In this document: in pieces, positions 24,082 through 34,036 of the stretch | Layout: every line of letters starts with the position of its first letter | Numbering within the stretch: position 1 is the stretch's first letter | Assembly: GCF_000014145.1 (NCBI RefSeq) | Contig: NC_008255.1 | Span: 3,736,001 to 3,800,000 of the forward strand | Direction of reading: 5' to 3' | Origin: Cytophaga hutchinsonii ATCC 33406 | GTDB taxonomy: Bacteria > Bacteroidota > Bacteroidia > Cytophagales > Cytophagaceae | Length of the DNA stretch: 64,000 nt | The notes under the pieces: model-generated | The model's database searches: none | What the model was told of the DNA's origin: nothing | What the model saw: only the letters and a program-made list of their open reading frames with translations | Made by a program: the position numbers and the translations under genes

Positions 24082-24348
24082 TTACTTAGCAGCTTTTTTA
24101 GCTACTGCTTTCTTAACAGCTTTTTTAGCTACTTTTTTAGCTGCTGGTTTTTTAGCCGCTGCTTTTTTAGCTACTTTCTTAGCTGCAGGTTTTTTAACTG
24201 CTGCTTTCTTAGCTACTTTTTTAGCTGCTGGTTTTTTAACTGCTGCTTTTTTAGCTACTTTTTTAACTGCTGCTTTTTTCACAGCTGGTTTCTTAGCTGC
24301 TACTTTTTTCGCAACTGGTTTCTTAGCGGAAGCTTTTGCTTTTGCCAT
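24082..24348 (-). CDS. Histone H1-like lysine/alanine repeat protein
   Basis: An 88-residue, extremely basic protein made almost only of Lys, Ala, Val and Pro after MAKAKASAKK. A 14-residue unit, VAKKAAVKKPAAKK with small variants, recurs three times in tandem, giving 42-bp DNA repeats. Such proteins resemble the C-terminal tail of histone H1 and bacterial H1-like proteins that bind and compact DNA; this is a family-level inference. It has its own terminator and an unusually strong Shine-Dalgarno site. Repeat number may vary between strains. Confidence 0.85.
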   Translation of the reverse strand: MAKAKASAKKPVAKKVAAKKPAVKKAAVKKVAKKAAVKKPAAKKVAKKAAVKKPAAKKVAKKAAAKKPAAKKVAKKAVKKAVAKKAAK

Positions 24349-25940: not shown

Positions 25941-25966
25941 ACAGGGTAATAATTACTTATGAAATA

Positions 25967-25974
25967 CAAATATA
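25967..25974 (-). promoter_or_regulatory. Candidate -7 box of lysA
   Basis: Minus-strand TATATTTG is a perfect TAnnTTTG, 26 bases before the lysA ATG. No TTG is found at a suitable distance upstream, so the -33 element is unsupported. Confidence 0.45.
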
Positions 25975-26304
25975 CTAAGTGTAAATCGTATTGTTCACCC
26001 TTGTTTCTTTTTTGATAGTTTTTTTGAAGCCTTGGCCTGCCATGCGTTCGATGTGCTTATTTTGCTAACGTGAAGGAAGGTCTCCTTGTGGTCTCTTTCT
26101 GGTCTCTCCCTGGGGTACTTCGGTGATCCTGCTGTTTTTAAGTAAAAATGGCACTTGATTGGTATCAGATAGTAAAGATTGCGAGTGTTTATTAAAGTCA
26201 GATGCATTATTGGTTATAAAAGCCGGGAATGAACGTATACATGCAGATCTTTAAAAGAAATACAGAAGCGTATCTATGTATAAGCTAATTTTTTGGTGGT
26301 GCCA

Positions 26305-26335
26305 TTTGGAAATTGAAAATTCCCCCATATCTTTG
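26305..26335 (+). promoter_or_regulatory. Promoter of the trp operon
   Basis: TTTG (26305-26308), 19-base spacer, TATCTTTG (26328-26335): a perfect Bacteroidota promoter. Only five bases separate the -7 box from the leader-peptide ATG at 26341, predicting a transcript that starts at or very near that ATG. Confidence 0.85.
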
Positions 26336-26340
26336 TAACC

Positions 26341-26388
26341 ATGAAAACAATTACAGGAACTAAACAATTGTGGTGGTGCGTGAACTAA
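26341..26388 (+). CDS. trpL: trp operon leader peptide
   Basis: A 15-codon frame encoding MKTITGTKQLWWCVN then TAA. Two adjacent TGG codons (26371-26376) are the hallmark of a tryptophan attenuation leader. It lies between a consensus promoter and a strong terminator, 108 bases before trpE. Ribosome stalling at the Trp codons under tryptophan starvation should alter folding of the downstream RNA and allow transcription into trpE. Too short to be found by length, but the context leaves little doubt. Confidence 0.92.
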   Translation: MKTITGTKQLWWCVN

Positions 26389-26433
26389 TCAGTTCGTGAA
26401 CATGCTGCTGTGTCCTGTTTGAAAATATATCAA

Positions 26434-26467
26434 AAAAGAGGCTTGCTGTTCACGGCAAGCCTCTTTT
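26434..26467 (+). terminator. trp attenuator terminator
   Basis: AAAAGAGGCTTGC (26434-26446) and GCAAGCCTCTTTT (26455-26467) form a perfect 13-bp stem followed by ATTTTATT. The 8-base loop TGTTCACG (26447-26454) is exactly complementary to CGTGAACA at 26395-26402, just after the leader peptide; CGTGAAC also occurs at 26379-26385 overlapping its last codons. These alternatives could form the antiterminator, though the pairing mainly involves the loop. Confidence 0.88.
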
Positions 26468-26496
26468 ATTTTATTAGGATTTAGGAAATTTCAATT

Positions 26497-27912
26497 ATGA
26501 AAACATATACATTAAAGCTTACCTATAAAAAAATACTTGCCGATACTACTACACCGGTAAGCATGTATTTAAAATTGCGCGACAAGTTTCCGCAAACCAT
26601 GCTGCTGGAAAGTTCCGATTACCATGGCAACCAGGATATTTATTCCTATATCTGCTGCAATCCCATTGCAGGGATAAAAATTGACAAAGGATATTTTACA
26701 GAATATTATCCGGATGGCACATTGAATAATCTGGATATTGAAGAAACAAACGTTCCTGAACAGATTACCAAATTTGTAAAACGATTTAAGGTAGATGAAA
26801 AGAAGTTTCCATTTACCAGCAGCGGAATTTTCGGTTACACGGCATACGACGCCGTTCGTTATTTCGAGGATATTAAAATCAAAACGTTTGAAACCGATTA
26901 CCGCAAAATACCCGATCTGCAATACCACATCTACCGCTTTATATTAGTATTCAACCATTTTAACAATGAATTAACCATTGTTGAAAATTACCCGGAAGGC
27001 GTTGAATACACGGACAACAGCTCCATCGAACAGATTGAATCTTATTTAAACAGCCGTAATTTCGCTTCATACGAATTCCGTCTGGCAGATCGGGAAGAGT
27101 CGAATTTTACGGATGAAGAATTTTTAAAAGTATTACAAAAAGGTAAAGATCATTGCAGAAGAGGCGATGTGTTCCAGATCGTACTTTCGCGCAGATTCTC
27201 CAGACAATATATCGGCGATGATTTTAACGTGTACAGAAGTTTGCGTTCAATAAATCCTTCCCCGTATTTATTTTATTTCGATTACGGCAGTTTCCGTTTA
27301 TTCGGGTCTTCTCCTGAGGCGCAGATTGTGGTAAAAGAAGATAAAGCAAGCATCTACCCGATCGCCGGTACATTCAGACGCACAGGAGACGACATAAAAG
27401 ATTATGATCTTGCCATGCAGTTGTTAAACGATCCGAAAGAAAATTCGGAACACATCATGCTGGTAGATCTGGCACGGAATGACCTGAGCAGACATTGCCA
27501 CGATGTGGAAGTTGAAACATTAAAAGAAGTTCAATACTATTCGCACGTTATTCACCTGGTTTCAAAAGTAACAGGCAAGATGGATAATAAAGATGCATTC
27601 ATGAATATTGTTGGTGATACCTTCCCGGCAGGTACCTTATCAGGCGCCCCAAAACATAATGCCATGCAGATCATTGACCGCAATGAACACGGCAACCGTG
27701 GTTTCTATGGCGGTGCAATCGGTTTCATCGGTTTCAATGGTGAATTCAATCACGCCATTATGATCCGGACCATTATGAGTAAAGACAATATTTTATTCTA
27801 CCAGGCGGGTGCCGGTGTTGTAGACTTATCAGACATTAACAGTGAACTGCAGGAAGTAAACAACAAGCTGGCCGCTCTTAAAAAAGCCATTGAAATGGCT
27901 GAAAAAATTTAA
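26497..27912 (+). CDS. trpE: Anthranilate synthase component I
   Basis: Converts chorismate to anthranilate using ammonia from TrpG, the first step of tryptophan synthesis. The 471-residue protein retains the N-terminal LLES feedback motif (MLLESSDYHG, near 35), suggesting inhibition by tryptophan. The chorismate-binding core is intact: RRGDVFQIVLSRRF, PIAGTFRRTG, DLARNDL, FPAGTLSGAPK and FYGGAIGFIG. It is the first structural gene after the attenuator; the trpG start follows its stop after 12 bases. Confidence 0.97.
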   Translation: MKTYTLKLTYKKILADTTTPVSMYLKLRDKFPQTMLLESSDYHGNQDIYSYICCNPIAGIKIDKGYFTEYYPDGTLNNLDIEETNVPEQITKFVKRFKVDEKKFPFTSSGIFGYTAYDAVRYFEDIKIKTFETDYRKIPDLQYHIYRFILVFNHFNNELTIVENYPEGVEYTDNSSIEQIESYLNSRNFASYEFRLADREESNFTDEEFLKVLQKGKDHCRRGDVFQIVLSRRFSRQYIGDDFNVYRSLRSINPSPYLFYFDYGSFRLFGSSPEAQIVVKEDKASIYPIAGTFRRTGDDIKDYDLAMQLLNDPKENSEHIMLVDLARNDLSRHCHDVEVETLKEVQYYSHVIHLVSKVTGKMDNKDAFMNIVGDTFPAGTLSGAPKHNAMQIIDRNEHGNRGFYGGAIGFIGFNGEFNHAIMIRTIMSKDNILFYQAGAGVVDLSDINSELQEVNNKLAALKKAIEMAEKI

Positions 27913-27924
27913 ACAGGAAGTATT

Positions 27925-28503
27925 ATGAATAAAAATATATCGATACTGGTTTTAGACAACTACGATTCGTTTACCTATAACCTGGTACATATTATAAAAG
28001 CATTGGGGTATACCAATCTTGAAGTACACAGAAACGATAAGATAACACTGGACGAAATTCAGCGCTTTGATAAAATCCTGTTATCTCCCGGACCGGGTAT
28101 TCCGTCAGAAGCAGGTATTCTGCAGGATGTGATCCGTACGTATGCCGGCAAAAAAAGTATTTTCGGTGTATGCCTCGGTCACCAGGCTATTGGTGAGGTA
28201 TTTGGTGGTACATTAACCAATCTTGAAAAAGTATATCACGGTATTGCTTCCAAAACACAGATTCTGAATAAAGGTGTTTTATTTGAAGGATTGCCGGAAG
28301 AAATTACAACAGGCAGATATCATTCCTGGGTAGTGGATACAAAAAATTTCCCGGACGTGCTTGAAATCACGGCAACCGATGAACAGGGAAAAATCATGGC
28401 ATTAAAACACAAAACGCTTGATCTGGTTGGCGTGCAGTTTCATCCGGAATCTATCTTAACAGAGTTCGGGAAGAAGATGGTACAGAACTGGCTGGAAGCC
28501 TAG
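27925..28503 (+). CDS. trpG: Anthranilate synthase component II (glutamine amidotransferase)
   Basis: Hydrolyses glutamine and passes ammonia to TrpE. The 192-residue class I amidotransferase has an oxyanion-hole motif LLSPGPGIPSEAG, nucleophile Cys in FGVCLGHQAIGE (about residue 83), and the His-Glu pair in VQFHPESI. The start LVLDNYDSFTYNLVH is typical. It is a separate gene, not fused to trpE or trpD. Two REP-like palindromes lie in the 239 bases between it and trpD. Confidence 0.97.
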   Translation: MNKNISILVLDNYDSFTYNLVHIIKALGYTNLEVHRNDKITLDEIQRFDKILLSPGPGIPSEAGILQDVIRTYAGKKSIFGVCLGHQAIGEVFGGTLTNLEKVYHGIASKTQILNKGVLFEGLPEEITTGRYHSWVVDTKNFPDVLEITATDEQGKIMALKHKTLDLVGVQFHPESILTEFGKKMVQNWLEA

Positions 28504-28550
28504 GGCCAAATAACAAATTCCAAAAGACAAATAACAAACAGCTTTACCAT

Positions 28551-28608
28551 GGTCTGTGACACACAGACCATTTCAAAAAATCAAATTTCGTTCTGTGTGC
28601 CACAGACC
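28551..28608. repeat. REP-like interspersed palindrome, copy 2
   Basis: Left arm GGTCTGTGACACACAGA (28551-28567) and right arm TCTGTGTGCCACAGACC (28592-28608) pair with one mismatch around a 24-base spacer. The left arm also forms its own hairpin GGTCTGTG-ACA-CACAGACC. It is the same element as at 12512-12557, here inside the trp operon. Confidence 0.9.
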
Positions 28609-28643
28609 GGGGAACGAGGACTAAAAGGCTGAAAGCCCCATCA

Positions 28644-28702
28644 CCGTGGTCTGTGACACACAGACCACTTCTCACTTCCGTTCTGTGTGCCACAGACCAC
28701 GG
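28644..28702. repeat. REP-like interspersed palindrome, copy 3
   Basis: The longest copy: 21-bp arms at 28644-28664 and 28682-28702 (CCGTGGTCTGTG.../...CACAGACCACGG) with one mismatch and a 17-base spacer. It lies 36 bases after copy 2 in the same orientation and 40 bases before trpD. The pair could form strong RNA structure between trpG and trpD. Confidence 0.9.
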
Positions 28703-28742
28703 AGCAAAAGAATAAATACGAGATCAATTTATTGATACAAAT

Positions 28743-29729
28743 ATGAAAGATTTATTACAACAACTGACCAGTCACTACCGCTTAACGAAAGAAGAAGCGA
28801 AAGAGGCTATGTTGGCTATTGGAAACGGAAAAATAAATGCCGCTCAGGTTGCAGCTTTTATTTCTGTATATATGATGCGCAGTATCACGGTTGCTGAATT
28901 ACAGGGCTTCCGCGAAGCGTTGCTGGAAATGTGTCTGGATGCTGATCTTTCTGAATACGATCCGATTGATATTGTTGGTACCGGAGGAGATGGAAAAGAT
29001 ACCTTTAATATCTCTACGTTGTCTTGTTTTGTAGTAGCCGGTGCAGGTATTAAAGTAGCCAAACACGGGAACTACGCCGTATCTTCTAGCTGCGGCTCTT
29101 CCAATGTAGTGGAATACTTAGGATACAAATTTTCGAACAGCAAAGATGTATTGCGTAAACAGATTGAAGAAGCAAACTTCTGCATGCTGCATGCACCGCT
29201 GTTCCACCCTGCGTTGAAAAATGTTGCTCCGGTACGGAAAGAACTGGGTATGCGTACCATTTATAATATGCTCGGGCCACTGGTGAATCCTGCTCTACCG
29301 ACATATCATTTATTAGGTACATTTAATATGGATCTGGCACGTTTGTACGGATACATTCACCAAAGCTTAAACAGTAAATTTGCTATTGTACATGCGCTGG
29401 ACGGTTACGATGAAATTTCATTAACGGGAGGTTTCAAAGTTATTTCCAATCAGCTTGACCGCGTACTTGAGCCGGATGATATGGGACTGCATACGTATAA
29501 AGCAGCAGAGTTATCGGGTGGTAAAACGGTTGAAGATGCAGCAAAAATATTCATTGAAGTATTGGAAAATAAATCAACACGTGCACAGAAAGAAGTGGTA
29601 CTGGCAAATGCCGGCTTAGCCATTTCCATCGCCAAACCCGATATTTCCTTATTCGACGCCATCGCAACAGCCCGCGAATCGTTAGAGAGCGGACAGGCAT
29701 ACGAATGTTTTAAAAAAGCAGTTAAGTAA
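28743..29729 (+). CDS. trpD: Anthranilate phosphoribosyltransferase
   Basis: Transfers phosphoribose from PRPP to anthranilate, the second tryptophan step. The 328-residue protein has the family PRPP loop DIVGTGGDGKDTFNISTLS near residue 80, KHGNYAVSSSCGSSNVVEYL, and NVAPVRKELGMRTIYNMLGPL. Length is normal. It follows the palindromic region and is 4 bases before trpC. Confidence 0.97.
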   Translation: MKDLLQQLTSHYRLTKEEAKEAMLAIGNGKINAAQVAAFISVYMMRSITVAELQGFREALLEMCLDADLSEYDPIDIVGTGGDGKDTFNISTLSCFVVAGAGIKVAKHGNYAVSSSCGSSNVVEYLGYKFSNSKDVLRKQIEEANFCMLHAPLFHPALKNVAPVRKELGMRTIYNMLGPLVNPALPTYHLLGTFNMDLARLYGYIHQSLNSKFAIVHALDGYDEISLTGGFKVISNQLDRVLEPDDMGLHTYKAAELSGGKTVEDAAKIFIEVLENKSTRAQKEVVLANAGLAISIAKPDISLFDAIATARESLESGQAYECFKKAVK

Positions 29730-29733
29730 GATC

Positions 29734-30519
29734 ATGAATATCCTGGATAAAATAATTGAACATAAGTGGACAGAAATAGCTGACAGAAAAGCAGCGGTTC
29801 CCGTTGAAGAACTTCGCAGGTCTTCTTTATATAACCGACCTACCCTTTCGTTCAAAAAATATTTAAGTAATCCGGCATTGAGCGGTGTTATTGCTGAACA
29901 TAAACGGCAATCACCTTCAAAAGGCGTAATCAATGCGAACGTTGATCTGAAACAAGTTGTTACAGGTTATCAGGCTGCAGGTGCAAGCGCTTGTTCGGTT
30001 TTAACAGATACAAAATTCTTTGGCGGAACAACCGAAGATTTATTACAGGCACGTGCACTGATACAGATTCCTATTTTACGCAAAGACTTCATGGTAGATG
30101 AATACCAGATTGAAGAAGCGCGTGCCATGGGAGCGGATGTTATTCTATTAATCTCTGCCTGCTTAACACCGCAGCGGATTAAAGAATTGTCGGAATATGC
30201 ACACAAACTTGACTTAGAAGTGTTGCTTGAAGTACACAATGCGGAAGAGCTTGAAGGAAATTTAATTGACACGGTTGATGTTATTGGTGTAAATAACCGG
30301 AACTTAAAGACATTTGACGTAAGCATTCAGACATCCATTGATGTGGCCAAACACATTCCGGAGCGTTACATCAAAGTTTCCGAAAGCGGTATCGACGATC
30401 CGAAAACAATTATTGAATTGAAAAAACACGGCTACACGGGCTTTCTGATTGGTGAATCATTTATGAAAACCAATGATCCCGGAGCGGCGCTGAAAAAATT
30501 AGTAGCGGAGTCCAAGTAA
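29734..30519 (+). CDS. trpC: Indole-3-glycerol phosphate synthase
   Basis: Closes the indole ring by decarboxylation of the CdRP intermediate. The 261-residue TIM barrel has the catalytic lysine regions AEHKRQSPSKGVI (about residue 50) and LRKDFMVDEYQI, then LLEVHNAEEL, GVNNRNLKTFDV and SESGIDDPKTI. It is monofunctional; trpF is a separate gene 34 bases downstream. The start is 4 bases after the trpD stop, indicating coupling. Confidence 0.97.
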   Translation: MNILDKIIEHKWTEIADRKAAVPVEELRRSSLYNRPTLSFKKYLSNPALSGVIAEHKRQSPSKGVINANVDLKQVVTGYQAAGASACSVLTDTKFFGGTTEDLLQARALIQIPILRKDFMVDEYQIEEARAMGADVILLISACLTPQRIKELSEYAHKLDLEVLLEVHNAEELEGNLIDTVDVIGVNNRNLKTFDVSIQTSIDVAKHIPERYIKVSESGIDDPKTIIELKKHGYTGFLIGESFMKTNDPGAALKKLVAESK

Positions 30520-30553
30520 AAAAACCTATGAGGTTTTTCTAAATAAAGTAACG

Positions 30554-31198
30554 ATGAAACTGAAAGTTTGTGGTATGAAGTATCCCGATAATGTAAGCGC
30601 AGCGACAGCACTGGCGCCGGATTACATGGGTTTTATTTTCTACAAACCATCCAAAAGATATTGTGGCGAAACACTTACACCAGCATTTGTAAAAGGATTA
30701 CCTGCTTCTATTATAACAACAGGTGTTTTTGTAAATGAATCGTTGGAAAAAGTTCTCCGCATTTGTGCATCGTACGGATTCAAAGCTGTTCAGCTACATG
30801 GCCACGAAACACCGGATTTCTGTTTAAGCTGTAAAGAAGCTGGTCTGGAAGTCATTAAAGTTTTTCATGTTGGCGAAGAAATGGATTGGTCAATCTTAGA
30901 ACCGTATAAAAAGGCCACAGACTATTTCCTGTTCGATACTAAAACACCTGAATATGGTGGTAGCGGTAACCGCTTCAACTGGGAATTGCTGAAACAATAT
31001 GACAATGAAATTCCGCTGTTTTTAAGCGGCGGTGTGGATGAAACGATTTTAGAAGAATTGGATATACTTAAGAACGTTAACATCTATGCGCTGGATATTA
31101 ACAGCCGCTTTGAGTCAGAGCCGGGCTTGAAAGATGTAGCCCGGATTAAAAAATTTAAGTCAGCATTAATTTCTGCTTCCGATGGATACCATTCTTAA
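30554..31198 (+). CDS. trpF: Phosphoribosylanthranilate isomerase
   Basis: Catalyses the Amadori rearrangement of phosphoribosylanthranilate. The 214-residue TIM barrel shows the catalytic Cys motif KVCGMKYPDNV at residues 4-14, MGFIFYKPSKRYCG, VQLHGHE, FLFDTKTPEYGGSGNRFNW with the catalytic Asp, and LSGGVDET. Its 3' end overlaps the start of the next gene by 17 bases, so that non-tryptophan gene is translationally linked to it. Confidence 0.96.
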   Translation: MKLKVCGMKYPDNVSAATALAPDYMGFIFYKPSKRYCGETLTPAFVKGLPASIITTGVFVNESLEKVLRICASYGFKAVQLHGHETPDFCLSCKEAGLEVIKVFHVGEEMDWSILEPYKKATDYFLFDTKTPEYGGSGNRFNWELLKQYDNEIPLFLSGGVDETILEELDILKNVNIYALDINSRFESEPGLKDVARIKKFKSALISASDGYHS

Positions 31199-31877
31199 AT
31201 CTTCATTCGAATTAAAAAGTGTTGTTCCCTGGGGCAGGACACTGGAAGAATATCAAACATTTTTTCAGTTAACAGAAGAAGATTTACATAAAAATATTCT
31301 AAGTATAGGTGACGGTCCGGCAAGTTTTAATAGTGAAATGCATCAAAAAGGAAACCGTGTGCTTTCATTGGATCCAATTTATGCCTTTTCTACTGAACAG
31401 CTTCTGGATCGTATCCAGGAAACCCGCACAGAAGTAATGATGCAGGTAAGAAACAATGCAGAAAAATTTGTCTGGACAACAATAAAAAATCCGGATGAGT
31501 TAGAACGAATCCGGTTACAGGCTATGTCTGCATTTATTAAAGACTTTGCAGCCGGTAACGCTGAGAATAGATATGTAGCGCATGAAATGCCTACGGCCAT
31601 TGATTGCCCAGATAATAGCTTTGATCTTGGATTAAGTTCACATTTTCTGATTCTGTATTCAACATTAGGTTTGGACTTTCATATTCAATCAATAACTGAA
31701 ATGCTCAGACTTTGCAAAGAAGTACGGATATTTCCGCTGTTAAATCTGAATGCTGAAAAATCAGACGTTTTGGACGAAATTGTTGAACACTTCAGCAAAG
31801 ACTACACTGTAGAAATTAAGGAAGTAGCTTACGAGTTTCAGAAAAACGGAAATCAATTGCTTTCAATTAAAAAATAA
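31182..31877 (+). CDS. SAM-methyltransferase-like protein inside the trp operon
   Basis: A 231-residue protein beginning MDTILKSSFELKSVVPWGRT. A degenerate methyltransferase fold is suggested by ILSIGDGPASFN (motif I position), LSLDPIYAFS (acidic residue after strand 2) and AIDCPDNSFDLGLSSHFLIL (motif IV-like), with a C-terminal strand ending LLSIKK. It resembles proteins annotated as SAM-dependent methyltransferases with an unknown target. It overlaps trpF by 17 bases and is followed by trpB 163 bases on, so it is probably cotranscribed. It has no recognised role in tryptophan synthesis. Confidence 0.75.
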   Translation: MDTILKSSFELKSVVPWGRTLEEYQTFFQLTEEDLHKNILSIGDGPASFNSEMHQKGNRVLSLDPIYAFSTEQLLDRIQETRTEVMMQVRNNAEKFVWTTIKNPDELERIRLQAMSAFIKDFAAGNAENRYVAHEMPTAIDCPDNSFDLGLSSHFLILYSTLGLDFHIQSITEMLRLCKEVRIFPLLNLNAEKSDVLDEIVEHFSKDYTVEIKEVAYEFQKNGNQLLSIKK

Positions 31878-31990
31878 TATATTATGGATTGCTTTTTATT
31901 TCATCGTATAACAACCCGCTCAGAATTCGTACATGAACGATGGCGCAGCATATAATAGCAATCTTAATTATCATAATAATATAACCACAT

Positions 31991-32024
31991 GCTTTAGGCT
32001 CCGCCGCGGCGGAAAGCCTTAAGC
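31991..32024. repeat. GC-rich hairpin before trpB
   Basis: An imperfect hairpin built around CCGCC-GC-GGCGG, with flanking GCTT/AAGC and AGGCT/AGCCT arms. It sits 17 bases before the trpB ATG with no T tract after it, so it is not an obvious terminator. Could be a REP-like remnant or an RNA structure affecting trpB translation. Confidence 0.5.
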
Positions 32025-32040
32025 TTTAAGCATACACAAA

Positions 32041-33237
32041 ATGAACTATAACGTAGATAAAAAAGGATACTATGGAAATTTCGGTGGAGCGTTTATTCCC
32101 GAAATGCTGTATCCCAATGTTGAAGAACTTCGTGAAAATTATTTAAAGATTATCAACGATGAATCTTTTCAAAAGGAATATCAAGACCTCCTTAAAAATT
32201 ATGTAGGCAGACCTACTCCTTTGTATTTGGCAAAACGCTTATCTGAAAAATATAACGCTACCATTTATTTAAAGCGTGAAGATCTGTGTCACACAGGTGC
32301 ACACAAGATCAACAATACGATCGGCCAGATCCTGATCGCAAAGCGTATGGGTAAAACCCGTATTATTGCTGAAACAGGTGCCGGCCAGCACGGTGTTGCA
32401 ACGGCTACAGCCTGTGCATTAATGGGCATGCCGTGTGTGGTGCATATGGGCGCTGTTGACATGGACAGACAAAAACCAAATGTTGAGCGCATGCGCATGT
32501 TAGGTGCTGAAGTTATACCTGCTATGACCGGTAGCCGCACGCTGAAAGATGCGACAAACGAAGCGTTACGCGATTGGATCAATAACCCGGTTGATACATT
32601 CTATATCATTGGTTCTGTTGTGGGGCCGCACCCATATCCGGATATGGTTGCCCGCTTACAGGCAGTAATCAGCGAAGAGATTATTGATCAGCTGCAGGAA
32701 ACAACCGGTAATCCTGATCCTACACATGTGATTGCATGCGTTGGCGGCGGCAGTAATGCAGCCGGTTCGTTTTATCATTTCCTTGATCGCCCGAATGTAG
32801 AATTGATTGCTGTTGAAGCTGCAGGTGAAGGTGTATATTCCGGTTATTCTGCCGCAACTACGTTCTTAGGTAAACCAGGTGTGTTGCACGGCAGCAAAAC
32901 CTTGCTGATGCAGACAGAAGATGGTCAGGTTGTAGAACCACATTCTATTTCTGCAGGCCTGGATTATCCGGGCATCGGGCCCATGCATGCCAACTTATTT
33001 GAAACCGGCCGTGCAAAATTCTTTAGCATAACAGATAAAGAAGCGTTCCAGGCCGCATTCATGCTGGCTCGTACAGAAGGCATCATTCCTGCTTTGGAAT
33101 CAGCGCATGCAGTGGCCGCCCTTGAAAATATTGCATTGAAAAAATCTGATGTGGTAGTTGTCAATTTATCCGGCCGCGGCGATAAAGATATGATGACATA
33201 CATTACAAGAAAAGAAGAATTCTTAACAAACAACTAA
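32041..33237 (+). CDS. trpB: Tryptophan synthase beta chain
   Basis: Condenses indole with serine using PLP. The 398-residue protein has the PLP-lysine motif [17 protein letters not shown] (Lys near 87), [30 protein letters not shown], and [14 protein letters not shown]. Length is typical of TrpB1. Together with trpA, whose start is one base after its stop, it forms the usual beta-alpha pair at the end of the operon. Confidence 0.98.
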
Positions 33238-33238
33238 T

Positions 33239-34036
33239 ATGGAGACAACAACAAAGGTTTCAAACAGATTAACAGCGTTGTTTCAAAATAAAAGCAACAA
33301 CTTACTGAACATATATTTTACAGCGGGTTACCCAACGTTACACGATACGGTAACTGTTTTGAAAGCCTTGGAGAAAGCGGGCGTTGACATGGTTGAAATA
33401 GGTATGCCTTATTCCGATCCGGTTGCCGACGGACCGGTAATTCAACAAAGCAGCCTGGACGCAATTAATAATGGAATGACCATTAAAACCTTGCTGCAGC
33501 AATTAAAAGATATTCGTAAAGAAGTTACCATTCCGATTTTATTAATGGGTTATTTCAATACGGTTATGCAGTACGGCGTCGAGAAATTCATGAAAGAGAT
33601 CAGCGAAATTGGCATAGATGGTGTTATTCTTCCTGACTTACCATTGGATGAATACATTGAGCACTATCAATCCATTTGTGAGTCGAATAACATTTCAAAC
33701 GTTTCATTGATCACACCGAATACTTCTGACGAACGGCTGCTTGTAATTGATAACATCACACAAGGTTTCATTTACATGGTTTCTACAAACAGCACTACCG
33801 GAAACGATGCTAAAAAAACAGAAGATAATCACGACGCTTATTTCAGCCGAATTAAAAACATGGGGTTAAAAAGCCCGCGTATGATTGGCTTCAATATCAA
33901 AGACCATAAAACATTCACCGATGCCTGCACGTATGCAAATGGCGCAATTATCGGATCGGCCTTTGTACGCCTGCTTGCTCAAAGCAAACATCTTGAACGA
34001 GATATTCTAACTTTTGTATCAGAAATTCGAAAATAA
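33239..34036 (+). CDS. trpA: Tryptophan synthase alpha chain
   Basis: Cleaves indole-3-glycerol phosphate to indole and glyceraldehyde-3-phosphate and channels indole to TrpB. The 265-residue TIM barrel has the catalytic Glu/Asp motifs MVEIGMPYSDPVADGPVIQ and GVILPDLPLDEY. The phosphate-binding region is less standard: the usual GVTG segment reads STNSTTGNDA, then GFNIKDHKT. It is the last gene of the trp operon and is followed by a strong terminator at 34036-34070. Confidence 0.97.
   Translation: METTTKVSNRLTALFQNKSNNLLNIYFTAGYPTLHDTVTVLKALEKAGVDMVEIGMPYSDPVADGPVIQQSSLDAINNGMTIKTLLQQLKDIRKEVTIPILLMGYFNTVMQYGVEKFMKEISEIGIDGVILPDLPLDEYIEHYQSICESNNISNVSLITPNTSDERLLVIDNITQGFIYMVSTNSTTGNDAKKTEDNHDAYFSRIKNMGLKSPRMIGFNIKDHKTFTDACTYANGAIIGSAFVRLLAQSKHLERDILTFVSEIRK

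Follow-up and report, generated by a model that had tools for sequence, protein, structure and literature searches.

The tryptophan operon of Cytophaga hutchinsonii ATCC 33406 is preceded by a Bacteroid-trp attenuator that probably controls trpEGDCFBA by a ribosome-mediated mechanism, with an RNA that would start only 0–1 nt before the ATG of its leader peptide and hence with near-leaderless initiation. All coordinates refer to the window, i.e., the whole stretch of 64,000 nt that was analysed, and the features of the attenuator and of the operon lie on its + strand. The attenuator itself was already known, as the Rfam model RF01692 (Bacteroid-trp) matches positions 26321–26447 over the full model (1–131) with 67.9 bits and thus above the gathering score of 49, and it is located, as expected for this family, upstream of tryptophan genes in a genome of the Bacteroidota.

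The promoter lies directly in front of the leader peptide. The −7 element TATCTTTG (26328–26335) agrees with TAnnTTTG at 6/6 positions, follows the −33 element TTTG (26305–26308), which is of the Bacteroidota promoter type and invariant across four aligned relatives, at a spacing of 19 nt, and is separated from the leader ATG at 26341 by 5 nt, TAACC. It is the sole 6/6 match on the + strand within 25950–26500; such matches occur at a background of 0.57 per kb and strand, and the probability that one falls by chance 3–10 nt before a given ATG is approximately 0.005. A generic sigma-70 scan was set aside, since Bacteroidota promoters are outside its scope. In Flavobacterium johnsoniae, the −7 box is followed by the transcription start after 4 or 5 nt at 241 of 434 candidate promoters (PMC6847099). 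Applied to the window, this spacing predicts a start at 26340–26341, that is at C26340 or at the A of the ATG, and the 5′ UTR of the trp transcript would accordingly measure 1 or 0 nt.

The leader peptide MKTITGTKQLWWCVN is encoded at 26341–26388, as defined by the sequence and the alignment with relatives, and its ORF ends with the stop codon TAA at 26386–26388. ATG 26341 is the only plausible start in its frame, because an in-frame stop codon is present at 26314–26316 and no in-frame ATG, GTG or TTG other than ATG 26341 follows it. The presumptive control codons, TGG TGG at 26371–26376, are codons 11–12 of the peptide. While two Cytophaga congeners contain three Trp codons (WWW), the window leader contains two, and its codon 10 reads TTG where the congeners have TGG. 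A sequence-only reading of this DNA had reported a −7 box five bases before the ATG as well as two Trp codons, both of which were located here, and had suggested that the transcript probably starts at the leader start codon; the latter proposal is strengthened by a spacing that is common to dozens of divergent relatives. A further short ORF, MYKLIFWWCHLEIENSPISL (26276–26338, starting at ATG 26276), also contains two Trp codons and overlaps the leader promoter; it was evaluated as a possible second leader but discarded, since it is not conserved in the congeners.

Downstream of the attenuator the trp operon, trpEGDCF-BA, is intact. The first structural gene, trpE (26497–27912; PF04715 and PF00425, best NCBIfam match TIGR00564), begins 29 nt past the terminator and is followed at 27925–34036 by trpG, trpD, trpC, trpF, the ORF 31182–31877, trpB and trpA, as assigned from the ORF listing and profile matches. 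The ORF 31182–31877 encodes 231 amino acids between trpF and trpB and overlaps trpF by 17 bases; searches against Pfam and NCBIfam returned no match for it, and inspection by eye suggests a resemblance to a SAM-dependent methyltransferase. Elsewhere in the window, on the − strand at 24082–24348, a Lys/Ala repeat protein of 88 amino acids is encoded that is weakly similar to histone H1-like DNA-binding proteins (21.5 bits at a cut-off of 80). TrpE of the window is 95–97% identical to TrpE of Cytophaga aurantiaca and of an uncultured Cytophaga, and comparison with two congeners delimits the conserved unit. The promoter block 26305–26340 shows 97–100% identity, the leader ORF 92–94%, the spacer 98% and the terminator 94–100%, while the flanks reach only 35–38% upstream of 26305 and 48–55% after the terminator. 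The conserved unit therefore starts at the −33 TTTG.

The leader RNA contains the elements of a ribosome-mediated attenuator, namely a short ORF with adjacent Trp codons beside a hairpin, a terminator and a competing antiterminator. It folds at −41.4 kcal/mol compared to −26.7 for shuffled sequences (z −4.38). The 1:2 or anti-antiterminator hairpin (26353–26418), identified by folding and corresponding to the consensus hairpin of RF01692, is closed at its base by ACAGGA (26353–26358) and UCCUGU (26413–26418), carries the apex CGUGAACU/AGUUCGUG at 26379–26398 and has the Trp codons paired. Trp codons are paired downstream in 102 of 124 leaders. Region 2, CGUGAACA (26395–26402), is complementary to region 3, UGUUCACG (26447–26454), which forms the loop of the terminator and its flanks. 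The intrinsic terminator 3:4 with its T-rich tail spans 26434–26467 and has a stability of −23.0 kcal/mol when folded alone. The sequence-only reading had proposed attenuation by the ribosome, a terminator of 13 bp and a loop complementary to a segment behind the leader. The terminator was recovered, although slightly longer, with 15 pairs counting one G-U; the complementarity was confirmed as CGTGAACA (26395–26402) pairing with TGTTCACG (26447–26454); and the proposed mechanism agrees with the Rfam match, the downstream trp operon, the conserved leaders with Trp codons and the competing structures, as far as sequence can tell.

Folding of partial transcripts supports how the switch could operate. 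In the absence of a ribosome, hairpin 1:2 (−17.4 kcal/mol) forms ahead of the synthesis of region 3. A ribosome positioned on the first Trp codon was represented by RNA that is free from 26386 and extends to 26456; its most stable structure is the antiterminator CGUGAACA/UGUUCACG (−20.0 kcal/mol). A ribosome positioned on the stop codon leaves the RNA free only from 26401; here the antiterminator disappears (−8.3 kcal/mol) and the terminator forms next. Since the antiterminator (−16 to −20) is less stable than the terminator (−23.0), antitermination must act kinetically. In the window leader alone the antiterminator duplex ranks only at about the best 5% of shuffles; in 59 of the 124 leaders, however, pairing of the region behind the Trp codons with the terminator 5′ arm and loop ranks among the best 5% of shuffles, where approximately 6 would be expected. 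According to the proposed mechanism, RNA polymerase would start 0–1 nt upstream of the leader ATG, so that the ribosome would have to use a 5′-terminal or almost 5′-terminal AUG, without the A-rich Kozak-like upstream bases usual in Bacteroidota. With ample charged tRNA-Trp the ribosome would reach the stop codon and cover region 2, allowing terminator 3:4 to form. When Trp-tRNA is scarce, it would stall on UGG UGG and open hairpin 1:2, and the freed CGUGAACA would pair with UGUUCACG, which would prevent terminator formation and let transcription proceed into the trp genes.

The short distance between −7 box and ATG is shared by many trp leaders of the phylum. Leaders were collected from Bacteroidota genomes as short ORFs containing W.?W followed by a terminator, and after removal of loci more than 70% alike upstream and of four clearly spurious ones, 120 non-redundant trp leaders were obtained, 70 of which possess a perfect 6/6 TAnnTTTG box. 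The distance from box to ATG in these 70 is bimodal, with 44 leaders at 3–10 nt, 2 at 11–15 nt, 22 at 16–26 nt and 2 at longer distances. The 44 leaders of the short class compare with 1.1 expected under a first-order Markov null, and scanning 657 ORFs of at least 150 amino acids from the window and the collected loci for the same box placed only 5 of 58 at 3–10 nt (Fisher p = 1e-10, uncorrected for kinship). The excess of short spacings behind the predicted leaderless start is thus far over both chance and ordinary genes. Where several in-frame ATGs were present, the script took the one nearest a good box, which favours short distances but concerns few leaders (e.g., L007/L048); the window leader has a single ATG. 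For the leaders of the short class, the transcript start would be predicted 0–6 nt before the ATG. The two classes also differ in base composition: in the 16–26 nt class A is present in 82% at −2 and in 50–68% at other positions up to −14, while in the 3–10 nt class the share of A is 39% (−1) and 27% (−2), with C or G common at −4 and −5. The long class fits the Kozak-like A-rich start of the phylum, and the short class fits a start without upstream contacts. On a TrpE tree, short and long spacing require at least 13 changes; this can be taken only as a hint of repeated switching, because the tree was built quickly from one gene, some of its labels are uncertain and a few loci seemingly do not have trpE after the leader.

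The short class is not special to trp, since it is also observed for leaders of pheA and hisG. Short spacings at pheA are 5 nt for MVRGLMLFAFYYFYQP and variants and 4 nt for MFSAIHPYFFFYHGSAR; those at hisG are 7 nt for MNNQFHNHHHASYPKG and MKLHINIHHHHTINLG, 8 nt for MKIQSHNHHHSLAQASR and 9 nt for MNTIVLNMHHHHFCA. The remaining phe and his leaders show 15–21 nt or no good box. No convincing leader was found at the thr and ilv operons of relatives, and the Cytophaga genome of the window has no leader at hisG or pheA by the criteria used. Overall, we consider it somewhat probable that Bacteroidota attenuators of trp, phe and his often start the message 0–6 nt before the leader AUG as a separate start mode, and that lineages switched repeatedly between this mode and a 5′ UTR of 12–20 nt rich in A, with few intermediates.

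Several relatives present trp leaders in unusual contexts. In eight loci (L060, L062, L083, L089, L093, L097, L099, and L101) and in other Spirosomataceae-type loci, the leader upstream of trpE is situated directly behind tRNA-Pro(CGG); in the eight, its ATG lies 12–18 nt past the tRNA 3′ end with no −7 box between. Here a tRNA promoter appears to have taken over the trp operon, and processing of the tRNA would free the 5′ end of the trp leader. L076, L084, L087, and L091 contain a seemingly decayed or cut tRNA after a TAnnTTTG promoter. In L056, L061, L072, L073, L075, and L081 the leader is preceded by a small Lys-rich gene (MGRGDKKSKKGKRT...), whose stop codon lies 3–18 nt before the leader ATG and which has weak Pfam matches, below cut-off, to S31e/Thx ribosomal proteins; given this distance, translation of the leader may be coupled to that of the gene. 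L043 and L101 are titled Bifidobacterium breve and Flavobacterium sp. SUN052, and their trp loci are Cytophagales-like; these assemblies are probably mislabelled or contaminated.

Such arrangements bear on the reading that the attenuator is the same but that its functional transcript is driven from an upstream promoter, leaving the leader peptide with an ordinary 5′ UTR. Some relatives indeed have no box near the leader, which instead stands behind another transcribed gene, either tRNA-Pro in Spirosomataceae or, in the Ohtaekwangia group, a small basic gene that resembles a ribosomal protein gene. For the window we regard this as unlikely, since no further 6/6 box is present in 25950–26328, the sequence upstream of 26305 is unconserved in the genus and the upstream gene lysA points away.

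A slightly more doubtful alternative accepts the start at 26340–26341 but supposes that leaderless initiation is weak, with ribosomes that seldom load, mainly constitutive termination and a modest, slow relief. It would be in line with the ability of hairpin 1:2 (−17.4 kcal/mol) to form without a ribosome before region 3, and with the missing A-rich upstream sequence of the phylum in the short-spacing class. However, even distant relatives retain the leader frame, the Trp codons and the spacing, as would be expected of a leader that is regularly translated, and the near-leaderless ilvBNC attenuator of Corynebacterium glutamicum works (PMC11857589). That the short spacing is functionless, a product of chance or shared ancestry, appears highly improbable. 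The relatives share descent and the spacing classes are clustered on the tree, but the 44 short spacings against 1.1 expected persist once loci more than 70% alike upstream are removed, the tree with its few unsure labels demands at least 13 short/long changes with intermediates nearly absent, and the short class recurs among Phe and His leaders.

With the trp attenuator of Escherichia coli, the window leader has in common two adjacent Trp codons and the 1:2, 2:3 and 3:4 pairings. The E. coli trpL is preceded by an untranslated leader with a Shine-Dalgarno site, unlike the start predicted for the window. The Bacteroid-trp family RF01692 was described in 2010 by Weinberg et al. (PMC2864571) and shares with the window the leader peptide with Trp codons, the same 1:2 hairpin, the terminator 5′ arm and the location upstream of Bacteroidota trp genes; the Rfam model, however, counts 20 nt before the AUG as RNA, which in the window hold the −7 box and would be promoter DNA. 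The main text of that description (PMC2864571), as far as searched, does not distinguish short from long starts, and the Bacteroid-trp element before the trp operon of Flavobacterium psychrophilum has been interpreted as an E. coli-type Trp leader (PMC6414381). Leaderless attenuation is not a new principle, because it is known in Sinorhizobium, Corynebacterium, and Streptomyces. The trpL/rnTrpL of Sinorhizobium meliloti is likewise a trp attenuator RNA that starts with the leader-peptide ATG (PMC7298713), but it belongs to an alphaproteobacterium with another promoter type. In C. glutamicum, the ilvBNC attenuator is transcribed from the nucleotide that precedes the leader ATG, and mutation of this ATG lowers expression by 80% (PMC11857589); in Streptomyces lividans, the leu, met and thr leaders are of the leaderless type, as are 17% of its mRNAs (PMC8079986). 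Transcription of these attenuators begins with the leader start codon or 1 nt upstream of it, but they are from Actinobacteria, where leaderless mRNAs are common, and mostly serve other amino acids. In mapped Bacteroidota genomes the leaderless share is low, with 3.7% of 5′ UTRs below 10 nt in Bacteroides thetaiotaomicron (PMC7366714), 5.5% in F. psychrophilum (PMC9723704) and 87% of leaders longer than 10 nt in F. johnsoniae (PMC6847099), which counts against a near-leaderless start of the window attenuator. In the literature consulted, which included few subscription papers, we found neither a report on leaderless attenuators in Bacteroidota nor a transcription-start map of Cytophaga. As far as checked, the near-leaderless start mode appears to be common and undescribed for attenuators of this phylum and would extend the known design.

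The Bacteroidota lack Shine-Dalgarno sites, use Kozak-like upstream bases and contain few leaderless mRNAs in mapped genomes. If attenuator leaders of this phylum are often leaderless or nearly so, they would provide a natural, regulated set for testing how ribosomes start on 5′-terminal AUGs, and they would allow to ask why the coupling of translation to transcription favours a leaderless start. It would also follow that the Rfam model RF01692 counts promoter DNA as RNA in many of its members.
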